A DNA stretch of 64,000 nt from Hymenobacter sp. GOD-10R (GTDB lineage: Bacteria > Bacteroidota > Bacteroidia > Cytophagales > Hymenobacteraceae): positions 4,099,001-4,163,000 of the forward strand of contig NZ_CP141184.1 in the NCBI RefSeq assembly GCF_035609205.1. Direction: 5' to 3'. Position 1 is the stretch's first letter. Each line of letters begins with the position of its first letter. Positions 7,000-59,994 of this stretch are shown here, one piece after another. The notes below the pieces were generated by a model. The model searched no databases. It saw only the letters and a program-made list of their open reading frames with translations, and had not been told where the DNA came from. A program made the position numbers and the translations under genes.

Positions 7000-8181
7000 A
7001 TGACTCCTGCTGTTTCTACCTTCCGCCCTACCCGTCCCATCCCCTACGGTCGCCAGCACATCACGCCCGACGACGTGCAAGCCGTAATCGAAGCGCTTCA
7101 ATCTGACTTCCTAACGCAGGGGCCAAAAGTGGTGGAGTTCGAGCAGAAATTTGCTGACTATATAGGTGTGAAATACGCCGTAGCCGTCAGCAACGGCACT
7201 GCGGCGCTGCACTTAGCGGCCCTAGCCCTGGGCGTGCAGCCGGGCCAACGCGTAATTACGACGCCCATCACATTTGCCGCTTCCGCCAACTGCGTGCGCT
7301 ACTGCGGCGGCGAGGTTTACTTCGTCGACATCGACCCCGTCACGGCGCTGATTGATCTACAACAAGTTAGGAGCTTACTAGAGAGTCACCCGCAAGGCTA
7401 CTTCCATGGGTTTATCCCAGTTGATTTTGCTGGCTTGGCGGTTGATCTGGAAGAAGCCCGTCAGCTCTGCGACGAGTTTGGCCTGTGGCTGATCGAAGAC
7501 GCGGCGCACTCACCGGGCGGTTTTTTCACCGATAGCCAGGGCGCGGAGCAATGGTGCGGCAACGGAAAATTTGCCGACTTATCCATTTTCTCCTTCCATC
7601 CGGTAAAACACATTGCTACCGGTGAAGGCGGCATGATAACGACGAACCGCGAGGATCTGTACGAAAAGCTGCTGCTGCTACGTACCCACGGCATCACCAA
7701 AGACCCCGCGAAGCTGCACAAAAACGACGGCGGCTGGTACTACGAAATGCAGGAGCTAGGCTACAACTATCGCCTGCCAGATATGCTCACGGCCCTCGGT
7801 ATCAGCCAGCTACGCCGCGCCGACGAGGGCCTAGCTCGTCGACGGGCTATTGCGGCGCGCTACGATGCTGCCTTTGCCGACATGTCCGGTGTGCAGCCTC
7901 TCGCCGGAGCGCCCGGTCACGCGTATCACCTCTACGTGATTCAGGTGGCAGACCGCAAGGCCCTTTACGACGCCTTGCGCGAACGGCAGATTTTTACCCA
8001 AGTACACTACATTCCGGTGCACACCATGCCGTATTATCAGGAGCTAGGGTGGAAAAACGGCGATTTTCCGCATGCCGAGGCTTACTATGCGCATTGCTTG
8101 AGCATTCCTATGTTTCCGTCGCTCACCGATGAAGAGCAGGCGTACGTCATTGCCTGCATCCGAGAGCTTCTTAATCAATAG
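7000..8181 (+). CDS. pseC: UDP-4-amino-4,6-dideoxy-N-acetyl-beta-L-altrosamine transaminase, PseC
   Basis: Second enzyme of the pathway: a PLP-dependent aminotransferase that puts an amino group on C4 of the PseB product. The 393-aa protein belongs to the DegT/DnrJ/EryC1 family. It has EDAAHSPGG (the PLP ring-stacking Asp region, about 166) and K203 in HPVKHIATGEGG as the Schiff-base lysine. The C-terminal FTQVHYIPVHTMPYYQ is typical of PseC. The start is the ATG right after a -7 box. It is the first gene of a tight operon, with 6 bp to pseF. Confidence 0.92.
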   Translation: MTPAVSTFRPTRPIPYGRQHITPDDVQAVIEALQSDFLTQGPKVVEFEQKFADYIGVKYAVAVSNGTAALHLAALALGVQPGQRVITTPITFAASANCVRYCGGEVYFVDIDPVTALIDLQQVRSLLESHPQGYFHGFIPVDFAGLAVDLEEARQLCDEFGLWLIEDAAHSPGGFFTDSQGAEQWCGNGKFADLSIFSFHPVKHIATGEGGMITTNREDLYEKLLLLRTHGITKDPAKLHKNDGGWYYEMQELGYNYRLPDMLTALGISQLRRADEGLARRRAIAARYDAAFADMSGVQPLAGAPGHAYHLYVIQVADRKALYDALRERQIFTQVHYIPVHTMPYYQELGWKNGDFPHAEAYYAHCLSIPMFPSLTDEEQAYVIACIRELLNQ

Positions 8182-8187
8182 TAGTCT

Positions 8188-8925
8188 GTGTTCTCCTCTT
8201 CCCCACGCATTGGCGTTATTTCCCAAGCCCGCATGACCAGCACGCGCCTGCCTGGCAAGGTGTTGCTGCCTGTCGCGGGCCAGCCGCTGCTCCACTACCA
8301 CCTAGCTCGTTTGCAGCAAAGTGAGCTGCCCTTGTACCTAGCTATTACCAGTAACGCCACCGACAACCCATTGGCGGATTTCGCCGCCGCGACGTACTTG
8401 CCATGCACGCGTGGCGACGAGCACGACGTGCTGGCCCGCTACCACCAGTGCGCGGCCGAGCATGAGCTAGATCTTATTGTACGCGTCACGTCCGATTGCC
8501 CGCTGCTGGATGGGCAGCTCATTGCTGAAGGAGTACGCACCTACCTGCGCCAAGCCGATCCGCGCCTGTATCTATCCAACGCGCTGGAGCGCACCTTTCC
8601 ACGCGGATTCGATTTTGAGGTCTTCTCCCGGGAGCTGCTGGATGAAGCCTTTTCGCACGCCAAGCTGCCCAGCGACCGGGAACACGTGACGCCTTACATT
8701 CACCAAAACCGCTCGGGTCGGGTCCGTTTTCAGCACATTACGCGTACTCCCGATCGTAGCCAGTACCGGCTCACGGTGGATACCGCCGATGATTTTACCC
8801 TCATCCGCACCCTGATTGAAGACTTCGGCGCTGCCGAGCTATCAGGAGATGAGCTCATTGCGTTGCTGGATGTGCACCCGGAGCTAGTAGCGATAAACCA
8901 GCACGTAGAACAAAAAAAACTATAA
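8188..8925 (+). CDS. pseF: SpsF-type cytidylyltransferase (CMP-pseudaminic acid synthetase role)
   Basis: Predicted to activate pseudaminic acid with CTP, the last step before transfer. The 245-aa protein has the nucleotidyltransferase loop QARMTSTRLPGKVLLP and the acidic metal site DCPLLD, as in Bacillus SpsF, rather than the IPARGGSKR start of the classical PseF/NeuA group. Position between pseC and pseG supports the role by context: the Bacillus sps operon uses SpsF with the PseI- and PseG-like SpsE and SpsG. The start is a GTG, 6 bp after pseC; the next Met lies inside the nucleotide loop, so GTG is needed. Two bases separate it from pseG. Confidence 0.82.
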   Translation: MFSSSPRIGVISQARMTSTRLPGKVLLPVAGQPLLHYHLARLQQSELPLYLAITSNATDNPLADFAAATYLPCTRGDEHDVLARYHQCAAEHELDLIVRVTSDCPLLDGQLIAEGVRTYLRQADPRLYLSNALERTFPRGFDFEVFSRELLDEAFSHAKLPSDREHVTPYIHQNRSGRVRFQHITRTPDRSQYRLTVDTADDFTLIRTLIEDFGAAELSGDELIALLDVHPELVAINQHVEQKKL

Positions 8926-8927
8926 CC

Positions 8928-10454
8928 ATGGCAGAACGCACGCGCCTCATCTTTCGGGCCGATGGCAACCCCCGCATCGGCCTAGGTCACGTCATGCGGC
9001 TGCTGGCGCTGGCGGAGATTCTGCGGGAGCAGTTTGCGTGTGTATTTGCTATTCAGGAACCTAGCCCTGAAGTGCTGGCGCAGTTGCGGGCCGTGTGTGA
9101 GGAAGTAGTGGAGATGGCGCCTCAGCCGGCCGCCGGTGAACCTGCTTGGCTCCGGCAGCATGTGCTACGCCCCACGGATGTGCTCGTACTGGATGGTTAC
9201 GGCTTTGAGCTCAACTATCAAGAAGCCGTGCGCCCGGCAGTGGCCCGGCTAGTTTGCCTAGATGATTTGCACGCTTTTCCTTTCGTAGCTGACCTAGTTC
9301 TGAATCCGGCTGGCGGTGTTACGCAGGAACGGTACGACCTACGTACGCCGGGCGCGCGCCTACTGGCGGGGCCGGCGTATGCCCCCTTGCGCACTGCATT
9401 CCGCGAAGTTGTACACCCCGTGCCTAGCTCCGCTCTGGCGACTACCATACTGGTCTGCCTAGGTGGCGCCGACCCCACGCACCAGACGCAGCAAGTAACC
9501 GCCGCGCTGCTGCAACTACCTGCTACGGAGCATGTGCATGCCGTTGTCGGGAGTGCCTATGCGGGTTGGGAAGGCTTGCAAACCTGGGCGCAGGATCAGG
9601 CGCGGCTTACGCTGCACCGCAACTTGCCTGCGGCGGAACTGTGCCAACTCATGCAAACTTGCGGCGCCGCCGTGTGCTCACCTAGTACCATCAGCTACGA
9701 ATACTGCGCGGCAGGTGGTGGCTTGCTGTTCCTGCTTCCTACGGCCGCTAACCAGCACGACCTAGATTTATTCCTGCGCTTAGCCGGCCTAGCCCTCCCC
9801 TACGCCAGCGCCTCCAACGTGCTGACCTCCCCAGAAGCTGACCGCATCAGCTTGCAGCTCCGCCAGGCCCAGCAGCACTACTTCGATGGCCAAGCGCCCC
9901 AGCGGCTGCGTCAAGAATTTGCGGCGCTGGTGCTACCTAGCTTTTCTTTACAGTTGCGCCCCGTCGCGCCCGCCGATTCCGAGCAGCTTTTTGAGTGGGC
10001 CAATGAGCCAGCCGTCCGGCAACATTCCTTTAATCCTAATCCGATCAGTCTGGCTGAGCACGAGCAGTGGTTTCAGAACCGCTTAAATGATCCTAACTCG
10101 ATTTTATTAATTGCCGAAGATTCGACCACCCGTCAAGCCGCCGGCCTCATCCGGTTTAGTGTAGAGAATACCGAGGCGACGCTGAGCTACTTACTTGGGG
10201 CCAACTATCGGGGCAAAGGGCTAGCTGCGGGGCTTTTGGCAGCCGGTACGTGGCAGCTCTTGCAGCAATTTCCGGCAGTACGACAGGTCGTAGGGCATGT
10301 GCAGGCGACGAACCTAGCTTCCATCCGGGCATTTGAGCGGGCGGGCTTTCAAGAGTTATCTTTTTCCGAGACGGCCAACGCTAACAGTCGCACTTTCTAC
10401 TGGCTATCTTCTGGTATTTATCCTATTTTTAGAGCTTTATTCTATACTACTTAA
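8928..10454 (+). CDS. pseG: PseG-PseH fusion: UDP-sugar hydrolase plus GNAT N-acetyltransferase
   Basis: A 508-aa two-enzyme protein. Residues 1 to about 340 are PseG, a GT-B-like hydrolase that removes UDP from the 2,4-diacetamido sugar; the signature RADGNPRIGLGHVMR is at the N-terminus, and a glycine-rich C-terminal nucleotide site (CSPSTISYEYCAAGGG) is present. Residues about 345-500 are a GNAT domain with RPVAPADSEQLFEWANEP and the acetyl-CoA loop around YRGKGLAAGLL, as in PseH, which acetylates the 4-amino group. PseH normally acts just before PseG, so the fusion joins consecutive steps. No separate pseH is present in the locus. The next gene's ATG follows the stop directly. Confidence 0.9.
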   Translation: MAERTRLIFRADGNPRIGLGHVMRLLALAEILREQFACVFAIQEPSPEVLAQLRAVCEEVVEMAPQPAAGEPAWLRQHVLRPTDVLVLDGYGFELNYQEAVRPAVARLVCLDDLHAFPFVADLVLNPAGGVTQERYDLRTPGARLLAGPAYAPLRTAFREVVHPVPSSALATTILVCLGGADPTHQTQQVTAALLQLPATEHVHAVVGSAYAGWEGLQTWAQDQARLTLHRNLPAAELCQLMQTCGAAVCSPSTISYEYCAAGGGLLFLLPTAANQHDLDLFLRLAGLALPYASASNVLTSPEADRISLQLRQAQQHYFDGQAPQRLRQEFAALVLPSFSLQLRPVAPADSEQLFEWANEPAVRQHSFNPNPISLAEHEQWFQNRLNDPNSILLIAEDSTTRQAAGLIRFSVENTEATLSYLLGANYRGKGLAAGLLAAGTWQLLQQFPAVRQVVGHVQATNLASIRAFERAGFQELSFSETANANSRTFYWLSSGIYPIFRALFYTT

Positions 10455-27178: not shown

Positions 27179-27890
27179 GCTACTAACTATAAAGGAAAGA
27201 ATGGGTAGGAAGACAGACTAAATGAGGAGTAAAACAGGTAAAAGCATCAGCAAGCCAGAGCCGGCACGTCTTACCTATATAAATAAAAACCTATTCTTTA
27301 ACGGAGTCAAAAAACACTTATCAGGTAAGTGTAGCTTGTTGAATAGCAAAAATGTTGCACAAAATGTGAGGACTGAATAACAGCGTGGAAGAAAGTAGAT
27401 AAATGCTATTTGATACTGGATAGAGTAAGTGTTGTGACAGCAATAAACCTAGCTCGTGCCATAAGCCAAACGTCATTTGCCTTTCAGCAAATTTTGCGTG
27501 GCGCCCTGCCCCTGCCTACCTTTGCCCATGCAACGCTGGATGCGCTTTGTTTGCAGAACGCCCACCCTTCCCACAGGCTGGGCGTCGTTATTTCTACTCC
27601 TTTCGTGAACGGTTCCGCCGAGGTACCCCCTCTTTCGGTTACCCAATTCTTTCTTCTGATAGTGCCATTCCGGGACTATCCGCCTCCCTGTGTCCCATGT
27701 TCGGAAAATCCTGTTCCTATTTTGAATCTTACTATTTATATTCTTTTATAGTCTTCATCTTCTCGGCACACTTATTCCCGTGTCGTGGTGCTGGTACCTC
27801 TCCGCTCTCTTCTATCCTCGGCCCTGGGCCCCGCCGCCCAAACCCTGCGGCACGGGACCTATGCGTACACCACGCAACAAAACCATTGTC
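27179..27890. other. Gene-poor host-prophage junction (probable attL region)
   Basis: About 700 bp without a convincing gene lie between the last host gene and the integrase ATG. The region holds a short perfect hairpin ACACTTA-TCAGG-TAAGTGT (27314-27332), a good Bacteroidota promoter (27493-27524) followed by a truncated 26-codon frame (ATG at 27528), and a 7-bp hairpin ACGCCCA/TGGGCGT just after. The left end of the prophage must lie here or slightly further right, but the att core cannot be set without the other end. Confidence 0.45.
27493..27524 (+). promoter_or_regulatory. Complete Bacteroidota promoter without an obvious gene (TTTG-N20-TACCTTTG)
   Basis: TTTG at 27493-27496 and TACCTTTG at 27517-27524, 20 bp apart, match both consensus boxes. 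Transcription would start near 27531, close to an ATG at 27528 whose frame stops after 26 codons. It may be the promoter of a host gene cut by prophage insertion, or of a small RNA. Confidence 0.55.
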
Positions 27891-29111
27891 ATGAAGCTTC
27901 GATTCTGGCTGAAGCTTCACAAAGTAAACAAAGCGGGCACTGCCCCCATCTCGGTTCGTCTCACCATTGCGGGAGCGCGCGCCGAGGTATCCGCGGACCT
28001 CCGCGTCTTTCCCGATGAGTGGGACCAAGCCACGCAAAAGGTAATCGCCACGCGCCGCACGCCGAGTGTCGTCGCCAAGCTCAACGACTACCTGGATGAC
28101 GTGGAAGCCGAAATCCGCACCGCGCGCAAAGACCTGCCCAAGTCCGAACGCACCGCCGCCCGCGTCGCCCAGCAGTACCGGGGCGAAGCGCCACCCGAAC
28201 CGATCTGTTTACTTACCGCCCTAGAAAAAATGCTTGCTGCTCATTACCGCCACGCCAACCAGCATACGCTGCCCAACTTCGAACGGGCTGCCGTGCTCTT
28301 GCGCGAGTGGCATCAGCAGCGTACTACTCGCCCCTCCATCCTAGCCAAACATACCTTTACCGATGACCTTAAGAAAGATTTCACCGCCTATTTGTTACAG
28401 CGTATGTCTCCTGCTGGCGTGCGCACTTATCGAATCGCTCTCTCCGCTATGTGGCACCGCGCGGGTATCTACGCCGCCGATGACAAGCCTTTTGCCGGAC
28501 TCAAACTTCCCAAACACACCGTGAAACAGCGGGCTTCGCTGAGCAAAGACGAGCTCATTTGCTTGCGCAGTAGCCCGCTTCCCTCCTATCAACACCACGC
28601 CCGTAATCTATACATGGCGTGTTTCTACCTGCATGGCTCGCGTATTCTGTCCGTGCTCCAGCTGCGCTGGAAGGACTACGACGGCACCCGCATTCGCTAC
28701 CAAGCGATGAAGGGCGGGCCGCTCAAGTCGGTTGTAGTCGGCGCTGGCTTGCAAGCGATCTTGAATGAGTACACCGACCGCCGCCCCGAGGCGTTTATCT
28801 TCCCGTACCTGCCCGCTGACTACTTCAGTCTAAGCCCGCAGGAGCGGCACAAGAAAGCGAAGTCCGGCGTTACAGCGGTCGGGTTCCATCTACGAAAAGC
28901 CTGTATCGCCTTGGGGTTACCCGATAACATTCACCCCCATACCGCCCGGCACACCATGGCCCGCATGACCGTGGAAGCCAACAACGGCGACATACGGGCG
29001 GCCCAACACGTACTCGGCCACACCAACTACCGGCAGACCGAAGCCTATGTACGGTCGATGCTGACCGAAGAAGTGGATATTGCAGCCAGTAACGTCTACG
29101 ACTCTTTGTAA
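27891..29111 (+). CDS. int: Tyrosine recombinase (phage integrase)
   Basis: A 406-aa site-specific recombinase that integrates and excises the prophage. The N-terminal arm-binding domain (1 to about 75, MKLRFWLKLHKVNKAG) and SAM-like core-binding domain (about 95-190) are of the Bacteroidota type. Catalytic residues are visible: Arg in HGSRILSVLQLRW, HTARH, the His in LGHTNYRQ, and the Tyr in TEAYVRS. The ATG at 27891 starts the conserved arm domain; an in-frame ATG at 27861 is possible. It reads towards the phage genes and ends at a hairpin terminator. Confidence 0.93.
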   Translation: MKLRFWLKLHKVNKAGTAPISVRLTIAGARAEVSADLRVFPDEWDQATQKVIATRRTPSVVAKLNDYLDDVEAEIRTARKDLPKSERTAARVAQQYRGEAPPEPICLLTALEKMLAAHYRHANQHTLPNFERAAVLLREWHQQRTTRPSILAKHTFTDDLKKDFTAYLLQRMSPAGVRTYRIALSAMWHRAGIYAADDKPFAGLKLPKHTVKQRASLSKDELICLRSSPLPSYQHHARNLYMACFYLHGSRILSVLQLRWKDYDGTRIRYQAMKGGPLKSVVVGAGLQAILNEYTDRRPEAFIFPYLPADYFSLSPQERHKKAKSGVTAVGFHLRKACIALGLPDNIHPHTARHTMARMTVEANNGDIRAAQHVLGHTNYRQTEAYVRSMLTEEVDIAASNVYDSL

Positions 29112-48463: not shown

Positions 48464-51400
48464 CTACTCCCCAGACCTGCTATCCGTCACTGCCTGCCGG
48501 CGCTGGCTGTCTTGCAGCGTACTTACTCCTACATCTAGCTTCACTCCCTTTAGGGCTTGCGCGGTGGCTTTACCGATCTCGCTGGCCGAAGGCGGTACGT
48601 TACCCCGTAGATACTGCCGCGTGTAGGCATCTGGTATCACAGTACCGTCGGCGAACCTAGGTCGTTGCAAGGTTGGCATGGCAGGCGTCAGCGGCTTGCC
48701 CCCACCTAGCACGTTGAGCATGGAAGCAACGGGCCGTAATGAAGGATTACGCCACACGCCTTTTGCCAGAATGATCTCATCTTTCTCCGCCTCGCCGTAG
48801 TGGTAGCCACTGCGGCTGTAGAGCTGCACGCCGCCTTGCTCGTGCGAGGCGCCACCGAGTACCGTGCCTTGTGCGAATTGCTTGGGCGGCGGCGCGGCAA
48901 GTGCGCCCTTCACAGCACCAAAGGCTGCTTTGATAAGCGCGACTTGCCCAGCGGCAGCCACTAAGTTTAGCGGAAACGGAAGCGACGCAATTGATTTTGC
49001 GGTGGCTTCTACCGTTGCTGTGATGACAGACTTTTCCAACGCGTCTAGCAGAATCACCAACGTCTTTCTGGTAAATTCTTCCAGGCTCAAACCGGTGTCG
49101 CTGAGCAGTTGTCCAAACAGCTCGCCTATTTGCTCACCTACCGTTCGGGCGGTCTCAATTGACTCCAAGCTCTTGGCTGTGATGCGTTCTAGATTGGCAA
49201 TTCGCAGATCGGTGAGTGCCTGATCATCGGCGGCCGTATCCCGATTGAACTGCTCGTTTACGCTACGGCGGGCACTGATGTGGGCTAACTCTTGCTGAAA
49301 CAAGGCATCTTGATATTCCTGCTCCGTAAGCTTGCCACCAGCACGCGCCTTTTCCAACTGGTTCCGCTCTTCTTGAAAGAACGTTTCGGCTGCCTTGAGG
49401 CGTGATTGGTAGACAATTTCTTGTGTCTGCGCCTCAGCATTGGCATTAATAAGCCGCTCCTGCGCGGCCCGTTGCTCGCCTTGGATTCGATCATCAATGG
49501 CCTGTTGCTGCTGTTGACGCTGCTGCTCAATCAACTCCTTTTGCAGGGCAATCTCTTCGTCTGATCCTTTGCGAATTGTGGCCAGCCGAGCCGTGATGTT
49601 GTTTACCTCTTGCTGCACTTCCAGAGCGGCCCGCTGCTTGAAGGTGTCTTCGAGCAGCTTGGTACTGTCGGCATCGTACTTGGCCTGAATCGTTTTGCGC
49701 TGCGCCAACGTCAGGTTTGCTGCGGCGAGTTGGCCATCCCGCTCTAGCTTGAGTTGGCGCTGGCGGATGTTGAGCTCTTCGTCGCTGGCTACCTGCACCT
49801 GTTGCAGTCGCTGGTTGAGGGCAACATTCTCCAAGGCGGCCGCTTGCTGAATGGCCTGCTGCTGAAACGCTAAGCGGGCCTGCTGAATCTCGAAATCTGC
49901 TTTGGCCGTGATGAGCTTGCGCTGGTTGTTGGTGAGCCCTAGCTCGGTGAGGTCGGCCTGGGCCTGGGCCCGAATGCCGCGAATGCGCGCCTCTAGCTCC
50001 GCTCGTGACCCTTTGGCCGCTTCAACCACCTGCTGCTCGTAGTAGGCTTTGGTATCGGCAGCGGCCCGCTCTCTGGCTTCTTTCTCTAACTGAAACCGAT
50101 TCGTGATTAACTCGTTTTGCTTGCCGGCCGCATCCTCCTGAATATCCACGAGCTCATTCTGGGCCTCTTTAAATTCCTTGAGCTGCTCGTTGTTGGCTTT
50201 GTTGAAGCCGCCGCGGCGCTCAATTTCCAGCTGCAAAATATCGACCCGGCGTTTCGCTAGGTCCACGAGTCGGCTTTCCCGCTCCAGTTCAATTTTGTAG
50301 GCATCCTCGTTGGCCTTGCGGCGCGTGGTGAGCGAGTTAAACTCATCATCCCGAATGTTCTTGAGCCGCTCGACCTGATTGAGCAGCTTCTTGTTGGTGT
50401 CGATGTTGTTGATCTGATCGCGCTCTAATCGCTGCCTGGCTTTGCTCAGATCACCAGCGAGCTTGGTCTCGCGCTCAATCTCGTCGCCGACACCCGCAAA
50501 GGACTGCCGCGCCGTTTCAGCCGCGGCCGAGAAGTCCCCGGACAGCGCTTGAAACACGGCTTTGCCGAATGTGCCGATCCGATCGGTGAGCACGTCCACG
50601 ACGGCACCGACCTTGGTCATGGCCGTTTCCACCAGCTGGGTGCCCTCGCGGGTTTTAGCGAGAAACGTCACCAGCGAGCCGAGGATCACCAGGAACGCCC
50701 CGAGCCCCGTAGCAATCAAAGCTAGCCGCAGCGCGCCTAGGGCTAAGGTCTCGCCAGCAGTGGCGGCTCTGGCCAAGGCAGCGGCCTGGCTGTACTTGGC
50801 TTGCAAGTCGCTGACCTTATCAATGGCCCCGCCGAGTACGCCGTTTTGCTTAGCGAGATCAAGCACCGAGACTTTTGCCTCTTTGGTTTCAGCCGTGGAC
50901 TCGCTGAGCGTCTTATTGGCGGCGGCAATCTGAAAGCCAATCTTGCGGTAGCTCTCCGTCATCTCGCCGCCGGTCTCCACAATTTTAGCCTGCTCCTGCT
51001 CCAGCTTAACCAAGTTCTGCACGGCGGGCTGAATCTCTTTTGAGTAGTTCTCAATGGCGTTCGTGGCCTCTTCGTAGCTCTTGCCCTGCTTGGCCGCCGC
51101 CTGCTGCGCCGCGGTCATAAAGCCCGCAATCTTGGCCTGGCTTTCGCCGAACGCGCGGCTGCTTTGATCTAGGTCCTTCTGCTGCTCTTGGAGCTTGACG
51201 AGCTCCTGCACGATGCTTTCAAACGAGCCCTTAAGCTGATTAGCGTAGTCGCCGACGTTGCGGCGGTAGTCGCCAATACTGGCGCCGGCTAGCTTCAACT
51301 CTTCGTTGATGCGCAGGGTCTCGGCTTGCAGCAGCTTGCCCGCCTCGGAGTTTTCCCGCTCGGCTTTACTCAAGGCGTTGTAAGCAGCCGTGTTGGCGGC

Positions 51401-51700
51401 TAGCTGGGCCTTGAGCTGATCGACGGAGCCCTCGGCGAGTTCGGTGCTTTTGTTGAACGCGTCCAGGTTTTTCGAGGCGGCGTTGTACTCTTTTTGCAGC
51501 GCGCCAATGGTGCCCTTTAGCTCGACTTGGCGCTTGGCAAATTCCTCATCGGCAATCGTGCCCGCCTTGCGCATGGCGGTGAGCTCCTGCTGCGCTTTGC
51601 GGTTGGTTTCCAGCTCCAGCGTGAGCCCTTCCATCTTCTTGATTTCCTGCGCTGGGTCAAGCTGGATGCGGATAATAACGGTTTCGTTGGCCTCTGCCAT
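48464..51700 (-). CDS. Tail tape measure protein
   Basis: A 1078-aa protein that sets tail length. It is nearly all coiled coil (about 1-290 and 430-920, with many Gln/Glu/Arg heptads), with a hydrophobic segment (about 320-350, LGALRLALIATGLGAFLVIL) and a C-terminal part with another hydrophobic stretch and the pattern GGASHEQGGVQLYSRSGYHY, seen at the end of many tape measures. Its length would fit a tail of roughly 150 nm if the usual 1.5 Å per residue holds. Confidence 0.88.
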   Translation of the reverse strand: MAEANETVIIRIQLDPAQEIKKMEGLTLELETNRKAQQELTAMRKAGTIADEEFAKRQVELKGTIGALQKEYNAASKNLDAFNKSTELAEGSVDQLKAQLAANTAAYNALSKAERENSEAGKLLQAETLRINEELKLAGASIGDYRRNVGDYANQLKGSFESIVQELVKLQEQQKDLDQSSRAFGESQAKIAGFMTAAQQAAAKQGKSYEEATNAIENYSKEIQPAVQNLVKLEQEQAKIVETGGEMTESYRKIGFQIAAANKTLSESTAETKEAKVSVLDLAKQNGVLGGAIDKVSDLQAKYSQAAALARAATAGETLALGALRLALIATGLGAFLVILGSLVTFLAKTREGTQLVETAMTKVGAVVDVLTDRIGTFGKAVFQALSGDFSAAAETARQSFAGVGDEIERETKLAGDLSKARQRLERDQINNIDTNKKLLNQVERLKNIRDDEFNSLTTRRKANEDAYKIELERESRLVDLAKRRVDILQLEIERRGGFNKANNEQLKEFKEAQNELVDIQEDAAGKQNELITNRFQLEKEARERAAADTKAYYEQQVVEAAKGSRAELEARIRGIRAQAQADLTELGLTNNQRKLITAKADFEIQQARLAFQQQAIQQAAALENVALNQRLQQVQVASDEELNIRQRQLKLERDGQLAAANLTLAQRKTIQAKYDADSTKLLEDTFKQRAALEVQQEVNNITARLATIRKGSDEEIALQKELIEQQRQQQQQAIDDRIQGEQRAAQERLINANAEAQTQEIVYQSRLKAAETFFQEERNQLEKARAGGKLTEQEYQDALFQQELAHISARRSVNEQFNRDTAADDQALTDLRIANLERITAKSLESIETARTVGEQIGELFGQLLSDTGLSLEEFTRKTLVILLDALEKSVITATVEATAKSIASLPFPLNLVAAAGQVALIKAAFGAVKGALAAPPPKQFAQGTVLGGASHEQGGVQLYSRSGYHYGEAEKDEIILAKGVWRNPSLRPVASMLNVLGGGKPLTPAMPTLQRPRFADGTVIPDAYTRQYLRGNVPPSASEIGKATAQALKGVKLDVGVSTLQDSQRRQAVTDSRSGE

Positions 51701-53899: not shown

Positions 53900-54020
53900 T
53901 GCGGTCTATGCGGTTCCAGTCCTCACGGAAAACCCGTTGAACTTTGATGATTAAGAGCCGGTGAATGAGTTTAATAGGCAGCGTACCACGCTTCACCTTG
54001 AATGAGTTGATCGTTGTCAT
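53886..54020 (-). CDS. 44-aa phage protein
   Basis: The frame starts MTTINSFKVKRGTLPIKLIH and ends RIDRIGRE. It is very basic. Its ATG overlaps the GNAT gene's stop (ATGA, 54017-54020), and its end overlaps the next gene's start region, so it is likely translated. No family recognised. Confidence 0.55.
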   Translation of the reverse strand: MTTINSFKVKRGTLPIKLIHRLLIIKVQRVFREDWNRIDRIGRE

Positions 54021-54343
54021 AACACCTTCACAAATTGAGTGTAGCCATCATGCCCCGGCATGTAAGGCAGAAAACCCAGCCGCTCATATAGTGCTCTAGC
54101 CCGGTGGTTGTCGTGGTGAACAGACAAGCCGACCGTACTCTTGCCTATCTCTCGCAACACGGCGAAGGCTGTTTGCATCAGTTCAGTACCAATACCCTTG
54201 CCTCTTGCCTCTTCTTGCACAAACAGGGACATGATATAGCCATCTATGTCAATGCGTAGAATGCCTTCTACACCAGTGGAGCCGTGCGAAAACAAGTAGA
54301 TCGTAGTGTCTGCATCTACTTTTGAATCAACTCGCTGAATCAT
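54017..54343 (-). CDS. Small GNAT acetyltransferase in the tail module
   Basis: A 108-aa GNAT protein: EEARGKGIGTELM is the acetyl-CoA pyrophosphate loop, and NHRARALYERLGF the C-terminal signature. It is flanked by ATGA overlaps on both sides, so it is co-expressed with tail genes. Possible targets are a structural protein or a host protein; unknown. Confidence 0.75.
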   Translation of the reverse strand: MIQRVDSKVDADTTIYLFSHGSTGVEGILRIDIDGYIMSLFVQEEARGKGIGTELMQTAFAVLREIGKSTVGLSVHHDNHRARALYERLGFLPYMPGHDGYTQFVKVL

Positions 54344-55953
54344 TGCCCCTGCACGGCCACAGCAGCCGCCTCCGTGAAGTTGATACTAAACTCATACTTG
54401 CGCACGCCTTCGCGGTACAACGGAAAGCTGCCACTACCCAGCGTAATCGGCACCCATGGCCCCTCGGGGTCAGGCTGGTACCATGCTTGGGGAGAGAAGC
54501 GTAGCGTGCGCAGGCCCAGCAGCAGCTCTTTGCCGGTGAACAGCCCGCTGCTGGCCTCCACGCGCCGGCGGGAAGGTGCCCGCGAGCTGATGCGTTGCTC
54601 AGCGGTCACAGCTTCGGTGTAGAGCTGGGCCTCGCCTACTTCGTCACTGTACCTAGGTTGGCCCGCAAACACCCAGTAGCCAAAACCTCCTTCGGGCGAG
54701 AGCCACCGCACGGGCAGTGGATTGCTCGGGCAGGGCAAGCCCGATCTAGCCAGGCCGGTTTCGCTTTCCGTGACAGCCTCCAAGGTGCCTTCGCTGGTGC
54801 GGCGGGCTATCTCGTAGTCAAATCCGGGCCACACGGGTAGCACGGCGAAGGGCGTGAGGTATACTGGGATCAATTCATCGGGCACCGCGCTGTTCAAAGC
54901 CAGGCCTGCCTCGTGCAACTTCACCTCGTCGCGCAACTCGTAGCCCACATACTGCTCTTCGGTCAGAGCATTCACGCTATTCAGGTCTAGGCGCCGTTGT
55001 CCGGAGGCCAAGGGACTGCCCAGGAAGGAACGCAGATACGGCCCTAGGTTGAACGTAGCGTACCCATCGGGCCCGACCGTCGCCCGTAGTTGCTGCACGG
55101 GCACCAGCGGGCTACCGGCGCGTAATTCCAGGCTCAGGAACGGGGGCAGCGGGTCGCCCGTGGCTTGCACGCGCACCGGCAACGGTGTCCACGCACTACG
55201 CCACGGCAACGCCGACGGCTCGGGGCTAGGCTCGGGGTCTGGTGGCGGTGGGGGCAGTACGCAGCTGCCATCGTCTTCGGTAGCTAGCGGGTTGTAGTTG
55301 GTGGCCGCTGGGTTCGTGCAGCCCCGTACCGTCTCGGGGGGCGGCGCCTGACAGTCCACCGTGAAGTTCTTCTGATACGTGCGGCCCGTGTTGTCCTGCA
55401 CAATGGTGTAGTAGGCCCCGTTGCCGAGGCCCGTGCGGCTGAACCGGCGCGTAGTACCGGGCTCGGCACTATCGCGGTTGATCAGCCCCGTGGGGCCGTA
55501 GAAGTAGGCTTGCAGGTTCGAGGCGCCGGGGTTGCTGGTGGCGTAGTCGAAGCGTACCTGCCCGCCATCGGCGCCGCAGGCCTGCGTGAAGCCGCGCACC
55601 ACGAAGCCGTTGCCGCCCTCGGGCGGGTCGGCCGGGTTACTGCCGCCATCCCCGCCCGCGGCGCAACTGATTGTAAAGGGAAAGCTGTACTGCTCGCCGC
55701 TGTGGTCAGTTACGCTCGCCGTATAGTCGCCGTCGGGCAAGCCATCTAGGCTAAAGTAAGCCCTTTGCCCATCAGCGGCTTGCCCGATATTGCGCGGGCC
55801 AAACAAGTCTACTTGCAAATACGCTGGCCCCACGGGGCCACCGGGGTACTCTTCCGGCGGGTTGTTGGTGCTGGTAGCGTAGAAGCTAACGGTGCCGTTA
55901 CCGCTGCCCGTGGCAGTGCACGCCGTGCTGAGGCTGTCGATTAGAATACTCAT
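54340..55953 (-). CDS. Tail protein with two Ig-like domains and a GCTNP-type Asp/Asn motif
   Basis: A 537-aa protein. Residues about 1-100 and 115-205 are two similar beta-sandwich-like domains (each with CxA start, YFSLDGLPDGDY / FSRTGLGNGAYYT, and a closing Cys). About 210-232 holds GCTNPAATNYNPLATEDDGS, a motif found in secreted adhesins of Bacteroidota and probably calcium-binding, followed by a Pro/Glu linker. The C-terminal half is a phage-type structural domain. ATGA overlaps at both ends. Confidence 0.65.
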   Translation of the reverse strand: MSILIDSLSTACTATGSGNGTVSFYATSTNNPPEEYPGGPVGPAYLQVDLFGPRNIGQAADGQRAYFSLDGLPDGDYTASVTDHSGEQYSFPFTISCAAGGDGGSNPADPPEGGNGFVVRGFTQACGADGGQVRFDYATSNPGASNLQAYFYGPTGLINRDSAEPGTTRRFSRTGLGNGAYYTIVQDNTGRTYQKNFTVDCQAPPPETVRGCTNPAATNYNPLATEDDGSCVLPPPPPDPEPSPEPSALPWRSAWTPLPVRVQATGDPLPPFLSLELRAGSPLVPVQQLRATVGPDGYATFNLGPYLRSFLGSPLASGQRRLDLNSVNALTEEQYVGYELRDEVKLHEAGLALNSAVPDELIPVYLTPFAVLPVWPGFDYEIARRTSEGTLEAVTESETGLARSGLPCPSNPLPVRWLSPEGGFGYWVFAGQPRYSDEVGEAQLYTEAVTAEQRISSRAPSRRRVEASSGLFTGKELLLGLRTLRFSPQAWYQPDPEGPWVPITLGSGSFPLYREGVRKYEFSINFTEAAAVAVQGQ

Positions 55954-56453
55954 CGGGCGAAGACGCTTTGTAGTTCGGTGGTGATGGCGGTTACCTCGCC
56001 GGCGGCAATGCGGGCCTTGAGCACATCGAGACGCTGCGCACTCAGCACGTCGCTGAACAGCCCCGAGGGTTGCTTGTGACGAAACAACGCTGTGCCTTCC
56101 GCATGGATTTTCTTGGCTAAAGCAAACCCAAAGGACTTGTACTCGTCTTCATCCGCTAGCTGTATACCCTTGTCTTTTGCCCACTGGGCGAGAATGGCAG
56201 CTAGGTTCGGGTTGCCTGCTTCGGCATCGGGGCTAGTCGGCTTGCGGCCGGTAATTAACGCTTGAATGTGTTGCGGCCCGTAGAGCGTCAGACTCGTATC
56301 CGTAGCCTCGGCATGGATAGCCCGTGCGGTCTTGCCACTCGCATAGGCGGGCGCACCATGGGGCGGCTGGGGCCGGTTCTTTAGCGCGTCAATAGCGGCA
56401 GCTACCAGCTCGGGCGCGGATTGCAGGAAGGCGATGCGGGCAGAGGCTAGCAT
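55950..56453 (-). CDS. Tail completion protein (HK97 gp10-like, tentative)
   Basis: A 167-aa protein. The layout of an N-terminal helix, a central YASGKTARAIHAEA followed by a small-beta LTLYGPQH, and a helical C-terminus is similar to gp10-like tail completion proteins. It overlaps the next gene by ATGA. Tentative. Confidence 0.5.
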   Translation of the reverse strand: MLASARIAFLQSAPELVAAAIDALKNRPQPPHGAPAYASGKTARAIHAEATDTSLTLYGPQHIQALITGRKPTSPDAEAGNPNLAAILAQWAKDKGIQLADEDEYKSFGFALAKKIHAEGTALFRHKQPSGLFSDVLSAQRLDVLKARIAAGEVTAITTELQSVFAR

Positions 56454-56860
56454 GCGTTGATACCGATATGGGCAAGCGTGAAACTGATAAAGTACCCCGT
56501 GCCCACGCCCGAGCCTTTGCGCAGCACGGGCGAGCGGTTGATCAGCTCGTCTACCACGTCGATGCTTGGCGTAGCCTCTAGGAGGGCCGCAAACTGCTGG
56601 GTCAGCAAATCCATCTCATTCTGAATCTTGATGCTGTCCTGCGAGCCGTTTTCGTGGTTGTCGTGGCCGTAGAAGGCCATGGCGACTTGCGTCGTCACGT
56701 TACCCGCCTTGAGCTGCGAGGGCATCAGGAAGAGATGGGCCTGCGGAAACTTCGCATCGTAGTTGATGTCGGCCTCGGTCTGCTTGCCATGCCAGAAAGA
56801 GGCCGCACCCGCCCGCAAGGCGAGCATTTCGAGAAGGTCGGTGAGTTCGAGGTGGGTCAT
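56447..56860 (-). CDS. Phage minor tail / tail terminator-type protein (tentative)
   Basis: A 137-aa protein starting MTHLELTDLLEMLALRAGAA. Helix-first and then beta strands (FYGHDNHENGSQDSI and FISFTLAHIGINAC), a size and layout compatible with tail terminators. The frame opens upstream to 57025 but overlaps the signal-peptide protein, so the ATG at 56860 is taken. Confidence 0.5.
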   Translation of the reverse strand: MTHLELTDLLEMLALRAGAASFWHGKQTEADINYDAKFPQAHLFLMPSQLKAGNVTTQVAMAFYGHDNHENGSQDSIKIQNEMDLLTQQFAALLEATPSIDVVDELINRSPVLRKGSGVGTGYFISFTLAHIGINAC

Positions 56861-56861
56861 A

Positions 56862-57257
56862 TCAGCGACTAGCTTTGCGGCCTGCTTTGGCCCGACGGCG
56901 GGCAGCTTTACGGGCCTTGGGTGAGGTAATGGGCTTGGTATATGCGCTGCTGTGCTTGGGCTCAAGCGAGCGGGCGTAGGCAGCCTTAGCGGACACTTCA
57001 GATGGACCCCAAGTGTAGGTATCAACGGGCTTTATGGGGAACGGCTCAGGCTCAGGGAATGCAGCAGCAAAAGCCTCAGGATTGCGCGTGAAGTATAGTT
57101 CCTCACCGCAACGCACATCTACAATCGGCATATCATCCGAACACCCTGGCTGCAACGGCTCCGGTGGGCGCTGTTCATTTAAACACTTGGTTTCCTGCCT
57201 AGTAGACTGGGTTTGTGCCAGGATGAGACTTGAGGCGAGTAATAGGCCGTGTTTCAT
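56862..57257 (-). CDS. Exported phage protein, unknown
   Basis: A 131-aa protein with a short signal-like start (MKHGLLLASSLILAQTQS), two Cys-containing segments (CSDD, VRCGEE) and a basic C-terminus (KARKAARRRAKAGRKASR). Its ATG overlaps the TGA of the -1 frame of the tail chaperone (ATGA at 57254-57257). Function unknown. Confidence 0.55.
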   Translation of the reverse strand: MKHGLLLASSLILAQTQSTRQETKCLNEQRPPEPLQPGCSDDMPIVDVRCGEELYFTRNPEAFAAAFPEPEPFPIKPVDTYTWGPSEVSAKAAYARSLEPKHSSAYTKPITSPKARKAARRRAKAGRKASR

Positions 57258-57538
57258 TTCGTCTGCTTCTTGCTTTGAATCTTGCGGAGTCGGTATTGAT
57301 AGGCTTGCTTGGCGGTTTCGAGTTGCAGCTTGGTGAGCACGGTTTCTGAGTCAAGCTTGAGTATTCCGTCATAGCGCAGCAGGTCGCCGCCGGCCAAGCT
57401 ATCGAGCGTCAGGAAAGCACCGAAGCGATCCCCGAGCGACGCGAGCCCGGCTTCCTCTTCGTCGTCGTCGGGTTCAATGCGGTCGCCGGGGTCGCTTTTG
57501 TGCCTTGTGTAAAGCTGAGAAAGCGACCCCAGATAAAA
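57254..57538 (-). CDS. -1 frame extension of the tail assembly chaperone (gpT-like part)
   Basis: This frame has no usable start codon near its beginning (no ATG, GTG or TTG from the frameshift site back to at least 57560), but is open for 94 codons after the slippery site and ends in TGA overlapping the next ATG. It is acidic near the start (IEPDDDEEEAG) and then helical (LDSETVLTKLQLETAKQA). It should be translated by -1 frameshifting from 57409-58014, giving a 253-aa fusion (159 + 94). Confidence 0.72.
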   Translation of the reverse strand, partial: FYLGSLSQLYTRHKSDPGDRIEPDDDEEEAGLASLGDRFGAFLTLDSLAGGDLLRYDGILKLDSETVLTKLQLETAKQAYQYRLRKIQSKKQTK

Positions 57539-58014
57539 TTTAAATTGGCGTAGGTCTCCGTGATGGAAAGCCCAAGCACGCCTTGGTGTTCGGCTTCAAG
57601 CACTTCCTCTTTCACATCATCAGGCAGGCTGTACAAAGCCAGCATGTACGCTGCGGCCGCAAAGCCATGCGCGTCGTCTTGGATGCTTTCAATGTACTGC
57701 TGGCTGAGCAGCAGCTTGCCGTAGCTAGCGGCACCTACATCAGGCAGGCCGGGCGTCGCCGTGAGCGCGTGCAGCTCGGTTTGATCTTCAGCGAAGGCCA
57801 AGCAGTTGTTGAGGTACACGGCGTCAGTGGCGGCGAGCTTGCCTAGGTCGGCCTCGGTGAGGTCGGTGAGCACGCACAGCACCGGAGTGGTGGTATCCGT
57901 GCCCGCCATCAAGCGCAAGTACTGCGCGGTGGTCACGTCACGCCAGCTGGTGGGCACAGTAAGCTCGGTGTTGGGGCGGCCGTCGGAGTAGGTGAGGGTG
58001 AAGGTTTGGGGCAT
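57409..58014 (-). CDS. Tail assembly chaperone (gpG-like 0 frame)
   Basis: A 201-aa protein starting MPQTFTLTYSDGRPN. VPTSWRDVTTAQYLRLM and the helical rest resemble phage tail assembly chaperones, which keep the tape measure protein soluble. In lambda-like phages this gene and a -1 frameshift extension (gpG/gpGT) are both needed. After residue 159 the 0 frame ends with a basic tail (KRKPGSRRSG). It lies directly after the large terminase, farther from the tape measure gene than usual. Confidence 0.6.
   Translation of the reverse strand: MPQTFTLTYSDGRPNTELTVPTSWRDVTTAQYLRLMAGTDTTTPVLCVLTDLTEADLGKLAATDAVYLNNCLAFAEDQTELHALTATPGLPDVGAASYGKLLLSQQYIESIQDDAHGFAAAAYMLALYSLPDDVKEEVLEAEHQGVLGLSITETYANLNFIWGRFLSFTQGTKATPATALNPTTTKRKPGSRRSGIASVLS
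57488..57544 (-). promoter_or_regulatory. -1 programmed frameshift signal (T_TTA_AAT + 7 nt + 11-bp stem)
   Basis: On the minus strand the heptamer TTTAAAT (57544-57538) is in the 0 frame as X_XXY_YYZ (codons AAT TTA AAT, residues 157-159). A 7-nt spacer (57537-57531) leads to a perfect 11-bp stem, GGGGTCGCTTT (57530-57520) pairing with 57498-57488, with a 21-nt loop. This is the standard layout for stimulating -1 frameshifting. Confidence 0.8.
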
Positions 58015-58016
58015 AG

Positions 58017-59204
58017 CTAGTTGATAAGCGAGGCGGGGGCGGATTTGCGGCGGTCGGTCGCCTTTGGCAAGCGGTTTAGCGCTACATAGCGCAGCGCATC
58101 AATGCAGTGGTTGAAAGCATCCACCGGCTCATTGGTCGCCTTGCCACTGAGGCGGTCAACCTTCCATTTGTAGTTGCTGAGCTCCTTGCGCAGGTTCACG
58201 CTGCCCACGGTCACATTCAGCCGGTAGCGGTGCAACAAGTCTAGGCCTGCGCGTACCGAGTCGGGGCCTTTCTGGGCGGGCTCTACGGAGAGGCGCAGGC
58301 GCTGCAAGTCGGTGATGCTCTTGGGCTCCGCTGAGTCGGCAATGATATCCCAGCGCGTGCCAGCGGGGCGGGCCGTAACCCGGCGCAGGCGCTCGGCGAT
58401 ATCGGTGTTGGTGAGGCCAGTCTCATACAGCACCTCGTCTGCCCACAGCTCGCCAGCACCTAGGTACAAGTCGACGGCCGTTGTAGGGTCGTTGGTGAAA
58501 CCGAAGTCGAGCCCCGTGCCGAGGTACTTGGCGCCGGCGGGTATGCCGGTGGTAGCTAGGTGCCAGTCACGCAGTACCAAGCCTTCAATCTTGCCAGTCA
58601 GGCCCCGCGCGTACACCTTCCAGAGCTCTTCGTCCTTTTGCTTGAGGGCTTCGATCTTCTCGCGCTGCTGGGGCCGCACGAACGGGTTGTGAATGTGATA
58701 GGATATCAGCTGCTCGACATTGGGCTTGCCCAGAAGCTGCTCATGCACCCAGAACTCAGCGTTGGGGTTGTAGTCGATAAAGCTTTGCTCACTACGCATG
58801 TACAGCTCTTCGAACACGCCGTAGGGGATGCCGTTGGCCTCATTCACAAAGAGGTACTTGCGCTTGCCGCTCTTGGCATCCTGGGGGCTGTCGTAGCTCT
58901 TGAACTCCATCACGCACCCATTGTGAAAGGTGAAGGTGTGGTCGCTCTTGTTGTAGCTCTTAATCAGGCGTTGCAGCTCGGGGCTGTTGTGGTAAATCTC
59001 GTTGGCATCCCGAATAGCACCCGCCTTGAGGTTGGGGATATCTTGCCCGCATACCGTGGCCACAGCCCGCTTATCATCGGCGAGCTTAGCAAACAGGGCT
59101 TGCAGGATGGTGTAGGTCTTGCCCGACCACGTGCCGCCTTGATTCACTACCACTTCGGCCGTGCTGTGCAGGTTGGGCTCAAACAGGTCGCCGGTCTTAA
59201 ACAT
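58017..59204 (-). CDS. terL: Terminase large subunit
   Basis: A 395-aa ATPase-nuclease that packages DNA. Walker A is VVNQGGTWSGKTYT (about 19-32), Walker B LFVNEAN, and the C-terminal nuclease has GLDFGFTNDPTT and DSAEPKSI with further acidic residues. It is of the PBSX/Terminase_3 type. The ATG at 59204 gives a normal start and an 8-bp overlap with terS; a frame extension to 59243 overlaps more. Confidence 0.93.
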   Translation of the reverse strand: MFKTGDLFEPNLHSTAEVVVNQGGTWSGKTYTILQALFAKLADDKRAVATVCGQDIPNLKAGAIRDANEIYHNSPELQRLIKSYNKSDHTFTFHNGCVMEFKSYDSPQDAKSGKRKYLFVNEANGIPYGVFEELYMRSEQSFIDYNPNAEFWVHEQLLGKPNVEQLISYHIHNPFVRPQQREKIEALKQKDEELWKVYARGLTGKIEGLVLRDWHLATTGIPAGAKYLGTGLDFGFTNDPTTAVDLYLGAGELWADEVLYETGLTNTDIAERLRRVTARPAGTRWDIIADSAEPKSITDLQRLRLSVEPAQKGPDSVRAGLDLLHRYRLNVTVGSVNLRKELSNYKWKVDRLSGKATNEPVDAFNHCIDALRYVALNRLPKATDRRKSAPASLIN

Positions 59205-59994
59205 TATCGGCGGCCTCCTTCTCGCTACGGGCAATGGGCACACCGGAAGAGATGACTTCTACCTTGGCATTGATGACGGCAGTAGCAGCGGCCTGGGTAT
59301 TGTCCTTCTCAAAGATGCCATGCACGCGGCCCATGTCACGCAAGGCGCCAAGGGCGTCGTACATCTCGACTTTGATACCGAACTCTGAGGGCTGCCACGA
59401 CTTGATGCGGTTGCGTTCTTTGGCCTGGGCTAGCTTCACGAGGTCGAGCTCAGCACGGTCGACCAGCTCGGGTTTGCCATTGACTACCGTGGTGGCATCG
59501 GGGTCACGGTCGAGTTGCATCTGCCAGCGTAGCACCTGTAAGCGCTTCTTGTTGATGTCGTACTGCTTGTCGCTTAGGTAGGCTACTCTCTGTTCACCGA
59601 TAAAGCCAAGGATATCGACAGACCGAGCGGCGTATTCTTCGTCAAATGCAATTTCTTTCTCAAGCAGCGCAATTGCCTCCGCCAGTGGCTGGGCAATCTT
59701 GGGCGTGTGCTCAACCTTTTTAACGACAACGAAGTCATTTACTGAGGTTTGGGCTATCTCTGATATGAGCTTGGTGGTCTCACCTGCACTCAGGCTAAGC
59801 GTCGTTAGGCGCTCATCAATAGCCGCCCGAATATGAGGTTTTCTGAGGTTCTCATAAGCTATTTCAGCCGCTGCGCTGTCGCTATAGCCAGCCCGTATTG
59901 CCGCTTGAGTACCATTCCAGTCCACGCAATACTCTTCGACAAAGCGCTGTTGCTTGTCAGTTAGCTTGGGGGTATTGGGGGCATCGGCGGACAT
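59197..59994 (-). CDS. terS: Terminase small subunit
   Basis: A 265-aa DNA-recognition subunit of the packaging motor. LTDKQQRFVEEYCVDWNGTQAAIRAGYS is the helix-turn-helix start of the Terminase_2 family. A long helical middle and a C-terminal tail follow. It comes first in the late region, with a 37-bp gap to the preceding gene. Confidence 0.9.
   Translation of the reverse strand: MSADAPNTPKLTDKQQRFVEEYCVDWNGTQAAIRAGYSDSAAAEIAYENLRKPHIRAAIDERLTTLSLSAGETTKLISEIAQTSVNDFVVVKKVEHTPKIAQPLAEAIALLEKEIAFDEEYAARSVDILGFIGEQRVAYLSDKQYDINKKRLQVLRWQMQLDRDPDATTVVNGKPELVDRAELDLVKLAQAKERNRIKSWQPSEFGIKVEMYDALGALRDMGRVHGIFEKDNTQAAATAVINAKVEVISSGVPIARSEKEAADNV

Follow-up and report, generated by a model that had tools for sequence, protein, structure and literature searches.

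Does the gene that directly follows the terminase in this prophage encode one protein or two, and if two, at which codon would the ribosome change frame? The window (the whole 64,000-nt stretch of DNA analysed) comes from a genome of 7.5 Mb, and its G/T locus belongs to a dormant virus (prophage) in a Hymenobacter-like bacterium. Taken as a whole, the reading that we regard as very probable is a programmed -1 frameshift that fuses a G-like part to a T-like part, aided by a downstream stem, with the slip most likely at the heptamer A_AAT_TTT and with products that would serve as tail assembly chaperones. The locus is composed as follows.

58014-57409, minus strand: 0-frame open reading frame, the G-like part, with an ATG start and 201 aa, directly 3' of the terminase large subunit gene

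57544-57538, minus strand: in-frame heptamer T_TTA_AAT, the slip site named by a first-pass annotation of this DNA, seen at the junction of none of the relatives examined

57541-57535, minus strand: in-frame heptamer A_AAT_TTT, overlapping T_TTA_AAT and holding the NNT_TTY core AAT TTT at 57540-57535

57532-57520 (13 bp as folded) or 57530-57520 (11 bp), minus strand: 5' arm of the proposed stimulatory stem

57498-57486 (13 bp as folded) or 57498-57488 (11 bp), minus strand: 3' arm of the same stem

57538-57254, minus strand: -1 frame, the T-like part, 94 codons plus a TGA at 57256-57254

The first-pass annotation had described an open reading frame with T_TTA_AAT, a 7-nt spacer, an 11-bp stem and a 21-nt loop, all of which are present in the letters, and a -1 frame that is open for 94 codons, has no start near the junction and ends in a TGA overlapping the ATG of the next gene (at 57257), which the letters likewise reproduce. 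The slip stretch reads AAT TTA AAT TTT, with its last base at 57535, and the spacer between T_TTA_AAT and the 11-bp stem is TTTATCT. T_TTA_AAT is thus real as a motif, but the overlapping second heptamer, A_AAT_TTT, had been overlooked, and the stem, perfect over its 11 bp, in fact extends to 13 bp on folding and encloses a 5-bp hairpin. Because slippage on either heptamer gives an identical fusion sequence (...ANLNFYLG...), mass spectrometry of a junction peptide would be blind to the heptamer on which the slip takes place.

The stretch from 57537 to 57480 folds at -26.5 kcal/mol (z -5.55, with 0 of 200 shuffles as good), and folding a slightly different stretch around the stem gave a z of -4.65. 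Counted from T_TTA_AAT the 11-bp stem starts after 7 nt and the 13-bp fold after 5 nt, and counted from A_AAT_TTT they start after 4 nt and 2 nt, respectively. A stimulatory structure is expected 4-10 nt past the slip motif (PMC4066793, in excerpt), a spacing that the 11-bp stem satisfies from both heptamers, whereas the 2 nt between A_AAT_TTT and the 13-bp fold would fail it. Folding energy by itself is common in this DNA, 61 of 3501 stretches of 58 nt in the late genes being at least as stable, and the rarity resides instead in the combination of heptamer, long -1 frame and stem. The 109 open reading frames of at least 100 aa in the window hold 61 in-frame heptamers (XXXYYYZ or six identical letters), and seven of these precede a long -1 frame, defined as one that is open for at least 60 codons and extends at least 60 nt beyond the stop. 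The strong stem (-26.5) is found only at the two heptamers of the G/T junction; the other five have folds of -6.1 to -10.3, and the stems at 4104 and 23467 are weak. An A_AAA_AAA at 8913, in a cytidylyltransferase gene whose downstream neighbour, an acetyltransferase-domain gene, starts at an ATG of its own at 8928, was taken as ordinary, as was a heptamer at 27837 that precedes a recombinase-like open reading frame with its own ATG at 27861. The A run at the former joins the genes at 8188-8922 (cytidylyltransferase) and 8928-10451 (acetyltransferase-domain), for which a frameshift is unneeded, and the open reading frame at 27861-29100 resembles a tyrosine recombinase by eye and possibly marks one end of the prophage.

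A search for the G part found relatives (E <= 0.01) in 13 of 120 genomes of the genus, the window's own included. Among the 12 others, eight keep G/T with T in the -1 frame (L002 across a gap of Ns), two have G with no T frame found, and two are fragmentary or interrupted. Further relatives were added from viral contigs and from a family-level search, so that 16 T parts and 17 G parts (two of the latter G-only) were aligned. The comparisons below rest on 15 gap-free clade loci, the window among them; left out were L002, in which Ns break the G/T stretch, L012 and L013 (fragment; stop-interrupted), and L003, L011 and the second L030 copy, which have G with no T frame found, while L062, L063, L064, L066 and L073 form more distant groups that were treated apart from the clade. 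The slip region of the window is matched exactly in its own genome and with 2 mismatches in 11 other genomes of the 120, and has no exact match among the viral contigs. The second L030 copy (7818-8282, seen also in L036) is G-only and shares its viral contig with the G/T copy, which lies about 2.8 kb upstream, and G-only proteins of this kind look common, by eye, among the search matches.

The T frame is the -1 frame of G in all 15 gap-free clade loci, and alignment places it there in L002 as well, a locus whose G/T stretch contains Ns. The conserved T domain is 93 residues long, with 12 residues invariant across the 16 T sequences. Three independent close pairs (L007/L008, L029/L031 and L009/L040) were compared for the positions at which they differ: over the 300 nt of G that end at the junction the differences number 44/25/101 on G-frame positions 1/2/3, in the G/T overlap past the junction 13/7/30 on T-frame positions 1/2/3, and past the G stop 14/8/39 on T-frame positions 1/2/3. 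Three more pairs with overlapping membership lean likewise, less so, the weakest giving 12/8/14 past the G stop. The third-position bias moves from the G frame to the T frame, so selection switches frame at the junction, and this substitution pattern indicates that the -1 frame is coding. Computation on the aligned sequences thus yields the conservation of the -1 frame and the selection on it, just as it yields the frames, the motifs and the predicted stem.

One might suppose that the two frames are a single gene decayed by a frameshift mutation, or the product of a sequencing error, given that distant relatives with one frame exist (L021 and L063, each with a run of T10, and by eye L064, L067, L076 and L078); the recurrence of one and the same -1 offset in all 15 gap-free clade loci, together with third-position-biased change in the -1 frame, makes this extremely unlikely. 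It is also very unlikely that there is no frameshift and that the T-like part is made separately, from an internal or non-standard start. An ATG, GTG or TTG is present in the T frame before +98 nt in ten of the 15 clade loci, and the -1 frame of the window holds a CTG at 57532 and an ATT at 57478, but from the upstream stop to 57397 the window has no ATG, GTG or TTG and only CTG/ATT, and the possible start at 57397, the first standard one in its T frame, falls well inside the conserved T domain. Five loci in all (the window, L004, L026, L029 and L031) are without ATG, GTG or TTG near or before the junction, and in the last four there is no standard start from the upstream stop until +98 nt or beyond. 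A separate start would, in addition, leave a conserved motif at the junction, NNT_TTY, unexplained.

That motif bears on where the slip would occur. In all 15 gap-free clade loci the codon just before the junction Phe codon (TTT or TTC) has T as its last base. Across these genes 255 of 2278 codons (11%) end in T, and of the 38 other Phe codons 5 follow an NNT; the NNT_TTY counts are uncorrected for relatedness. The preceding codon itself varies (AAT, CAT, CTT, GCT, GTT or TAT), and the junction of L002, the locus with Ns, reads ACT TTT TTT by eye. Since at these junctions T_TTA_AAT stands in the window alone and NNT_TTY occurs in 15 of 15 loci, the common core is T_TTY, which permits tRNA-Phe to re-pair one base back and which in the window takes the form AAT_TTT, inside A_AAT_TTT. 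The core by itself does not imply a T frame, for it is retained in G-only L003 (TTT TTT) and in the G-only L030 copy (TAT TTC), both of which are without one; G-only L011 reads CAC TTC and has no slip core. The comparison with relatives that the first-pass annotation had proposed, with absence of the heptamer or of the -1 frame as its own refuting outcome, goes against the heptamer and not against the frame. The designation of T_TTA_AAT as the slip signal is not supported, that heptamer being absent from every relative's junction and the conserved NNT_TTY lying one codon downstream of it.

Slippage rules worked out in E. coli are of some help in weighing the two heptamers. Among tetramers, U_UUC and U_UUU rank next after A_AAG, heptamers of the form R_RR.U_UU.Y are notably shifty, and ZZN codons made up wholly of purines or of pyrimidines slip better than mixed ones such as AAU (excerpts of PMC4066793). 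The same source, as excerpted, has lone tetramers far weaker than the best heptamers and, with a strong stimulator, 61 of 64 tested heptamers at least 2-fold above control; it names three exceptions, to which T_TTA_AAT does not belong (PMC4066793). The E. coli slip rules favour A_AAT_TTT; spacer length favours T_TTA_AAT. On balance we lean towards A_AAT_TTT as the main slip site, with joint use of T_TTA_AAT possible. The converse arrangement, in which T_TTA_AAT is the main slip site, tRNA-Leu and tRNA-Asn slip together and A_AAT_TTT is incidental, seems rather unlikely to us. It has in its favour that T_TTA_AAT is in frame with a 7-nt spacer to the 11-bp stem, that ten late genes use TTA sparingly (4.9 per 1000 codons), that this heptamer is not among the three that fail with a strong stimulator in the excerpted E. 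coli data (PMC4066793), and that the window's stem sits 2-4 nt closer to TTT than does the stem of six of the nine stem-bearing relatives, an offset that looks as if slip site and stem had shifted together. These points have to be set against its absence from the junction of any relative, against the mixed ZZN codon AAU, which belongs to the poorer class in E. coli (PMC4066793, in excerpt), and against the circumstance that the final A of TTA is required for A_AAT_TTT in any case.

Slippage at A_AAT_TTT, as we prefer to read the junction, would be stem-aided in the window, and stems recur in part of the clade. Nine relatives (L005-L010, L035, L040 and L042), picked because a stem had already been noticed in them, gave z values of -4.2 to -5.3 in L006, L007, L008, L010 and L035, of -2.8 in L005 and -2.9 in L042, and of -1.6 in L009 and -1.8 in L040. 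Between TTY and the main stem lie 6 nt in L005, L007, L008, L009, L010 and L040, about 5 nt in L006 and L035, and 3 nt in L042; because the L042 stem follows TTT by only 3 nt, a short spacer is not peculiar to the window. On a 62-nt stretch the same nine relatives gave weaker z values (-0.5 to -4.6), and on that stretch no convincing stem was found in six other clade relatives (L002 1.5, L004 1.0, L026 0.3, L027 -1.4, L029 0.4 and L031 -0.1). Fixed-register covariation across six relatives gave 88.3% paired, with 47 of 500 shuffles as high and with the register shifted by a bulge in L006/L035, and between L009 and L040 one stem pair is changed on both sides, by eye.

Long T runs mark the junction in more distant Bacteroidota relatives. 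A run of T9 stands there, with T in the -1 frame, in L018, L019, L020, L022, L025, L062, L069 and L073, and a run of T7, again with T in the -1 frame, in L079-L083. In L021 and L063 the run is T10 and both parts are in one frame, their sister copies having T9, and L063 comes from the same genome as L073 (T9); the T10 is possibly a homopolymer length error and possibly a real change. By eye, L064, L067, L076 and L078 have both parts in a single open reading frame without a T run, and two of these, L076 and L078, are in the window's own genome (C1 near 614669 and 4705309) with a degenerate T-like end, also by eye. Runs of T9 in several relatives, and of T10 in two, are candidates for slippage of RNA polymerase instead of the ribosome, which would yield a fusion mRNA. 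This is highly improbable as an account of the window, where the longest T run at the junction is no more than T4, beside AAA, and several relatives combine T4-T5 with a stem.

T-run length correlates with stem z over 32 loci (Spearman 0.59, p 3e-4), a set that includes the one-frame loci L021 and L063 as well as L066, in which a stop interrupts the -1 frame; for the 16 clade loci alone the value is 0.28 (p 0.29). A trade-off between homopolymer and stem was consequently rejected and is kept merely as a lead, the correlation existing only between groups and being confounded by relatedness. It is possible, if less than probable, that in this Bacteroidota phage lineage the junction moves among three answers to one dosing problem: a T7-T9 run without a stem, a minimal NNT_TTY tetramer or heptamer with a stem, and an in-frame fusion. 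The window would then be a stem-dependent form, in which all three tRNAs on TTA-AAT-TTT can re-pair at -1, a combined picture that we put forward tentatively.

What the two products would do is suggested by their architecture and by the genes around them.

59197-59994, minus strand: terminase small subunit (PHROG matches)

58017-59243, minus strand: terminase large subunit, TerL (PHROG and Pfam matches)

56447-56860, minus strand: syntenic gene after G/T in relatives, read from the ATG at 56860

55950-56453, minus strand: syntenic gene whose match in phage BS-TP3 bears an annotation note mentioning HK97

48464-51700, minus strand: probable tape measure protein of 1078 aa (phrog_167, tail length tape measure, E 9e-5)

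All 14 clade relatives whose sequence reaches far enough upstream (L002 is too short there to count) have a large terminase gene immediately before G/T, so that a position after the terminase, which had been singled out as unusual, is rather the rule. Ten of these terminases are like the window's TerL by similarity, and in the other four (L026, L027, L029 and L031) the gene has been swapped for a terminase of a different family with the downstream order kept. Downstream, most loci that extend far enough carry homologues of the window's genes at 56860, 56453, 55953 and 53899, in unchanged order. In the window G/T is followed by six open reading frames and then by the probable tape measure gene, to which it is not adjacent; among the relatives the tape measure match is reached in L026 only, the other loci ending sooner. 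Among the window's tail genes, a small open reading frame at 54017-54343 resembles a GNAT acetyltransferase by eye.

In three annotated Bacteroidota phages a gene of 178-195 codons adjoins TerL, with a clear T-like match only in the Elizabethkingia phage TCUEAP1, whose single 180-aa gene after the terminase matches the T profile at 1.5e-6; the match is weak in MT836763 (0.012) and not significant in BS-TP3 (0.94). The family phrog_28240 is common to BS-TP3, MT836763 and L064. Searches of annotated phages with the window's G, with the T of one relative and with the distant G-like L079 gave no match, and sequence searches of the PDB gave nothing credible. Neither G nor T matched a named tail chaperone in Pfam or PHROGs, nor did the T part in NCBIfam; T matches phrog_2757, which has no function assigned, at 8e-4 in 4 of 9 sequences, and 1 of 10 G sequences hits phrog_166 ('tail protein') at 0.044. 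As no named chaperone family is matched, it is from architecture and gene order that we infer a role as tail assembly chaperones. The lambda-type tail chaperone frameshift that the first-pass annotation had put forward is in this sense retained, as a -1 G/T frameshift with probable chaperone products by architecture and gene order, but protein families do not bear it out.

The mechanism that we infer, including the slippage itself, its rate and its exact codon, would run as follows. Most ribosomes on the post-terminase gene would complete the 201-residue G-like protein, and a minority, aided by the stem-loop just downstream, would slip back one base at TTA-AAT-TTT and read 94 further codons to give a 253-residue G-T fusion. 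The slip would most likely consist in tRNA-Phe leaving TTT for the TTT that overlaps it, T_TTA_AAT either contributing or serving as an alternative, and the two products may act as tail assembly chaperones, as their gene position and the analogy with lambda gpG/gpGT suggest.

Tail-chaperone frameshifting has long been known in phages, and departures from XXXYYYZ have already been noted (PMC10885494, in part). PRFect lists phage slip motifs other than XXXYYYZ, with chaperone sites often departing from that pattern; it was built on SEA-PHAGES genomes, and 'Bacteroid' is absent from the text of the paper (PMC10885494). In the literature searched on the subject there was no report of such frameshifting for Bacteroidota phages, and both the protein family and the slip site that the relatives share look undescribed. 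The present locus would extend frameshifting of the tail-chaperone type to a family of Bacteroidota phages without a named chaperone match. Its relatives form a natural series, with T runs from T4 to T10, a stem or none, and parts split or fused, from which one might learn how frameshift sites are gained or lost and whether the slip rules of E. coli apply in Bacteroidota.

In lambda the slip motif is G_GGA_AAG, and in lambda-type phages G binds the tape measure and T the tail tube protein. As in lambda gpG/gpGT, the open reading frames here overlap, T is in the -1 frame and the slip is near the end of G, and, again as in lambda, the window's T is without a standard start and G/T lies upstream of a probable tape measure gene. 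Unlike in lambda, the window's G/T directly follows TerL and is separated from the tape measure by several genes, its clade has the core NNT_TTY in place of G_GGA_AAG, and neither part resembles a named chaperone family in the libraries covered. The G-T frameshift is found in long-tailed dsDNA phages, including lambda with its gpG/gpGT tail assembly chaperones (PMC5009743, in excerpt, which cites Xu, Hendrix and Duda 2004), and Z_ZZN tetramers serve as frameshift sites in IS elements, T_TTT and T_TTC ranking among the top three tetramers for activity in E. coli (PMC4066793, in excerpt). L005-L008 are like such Z_ZZN sites, with CTT TTT or CTT TTC, a 3' stem and a junction without an XXXYYYZ heptamer. 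Unlike the IS sites, they lie in a chaperone-like phage gene, and the window has full heptamers.
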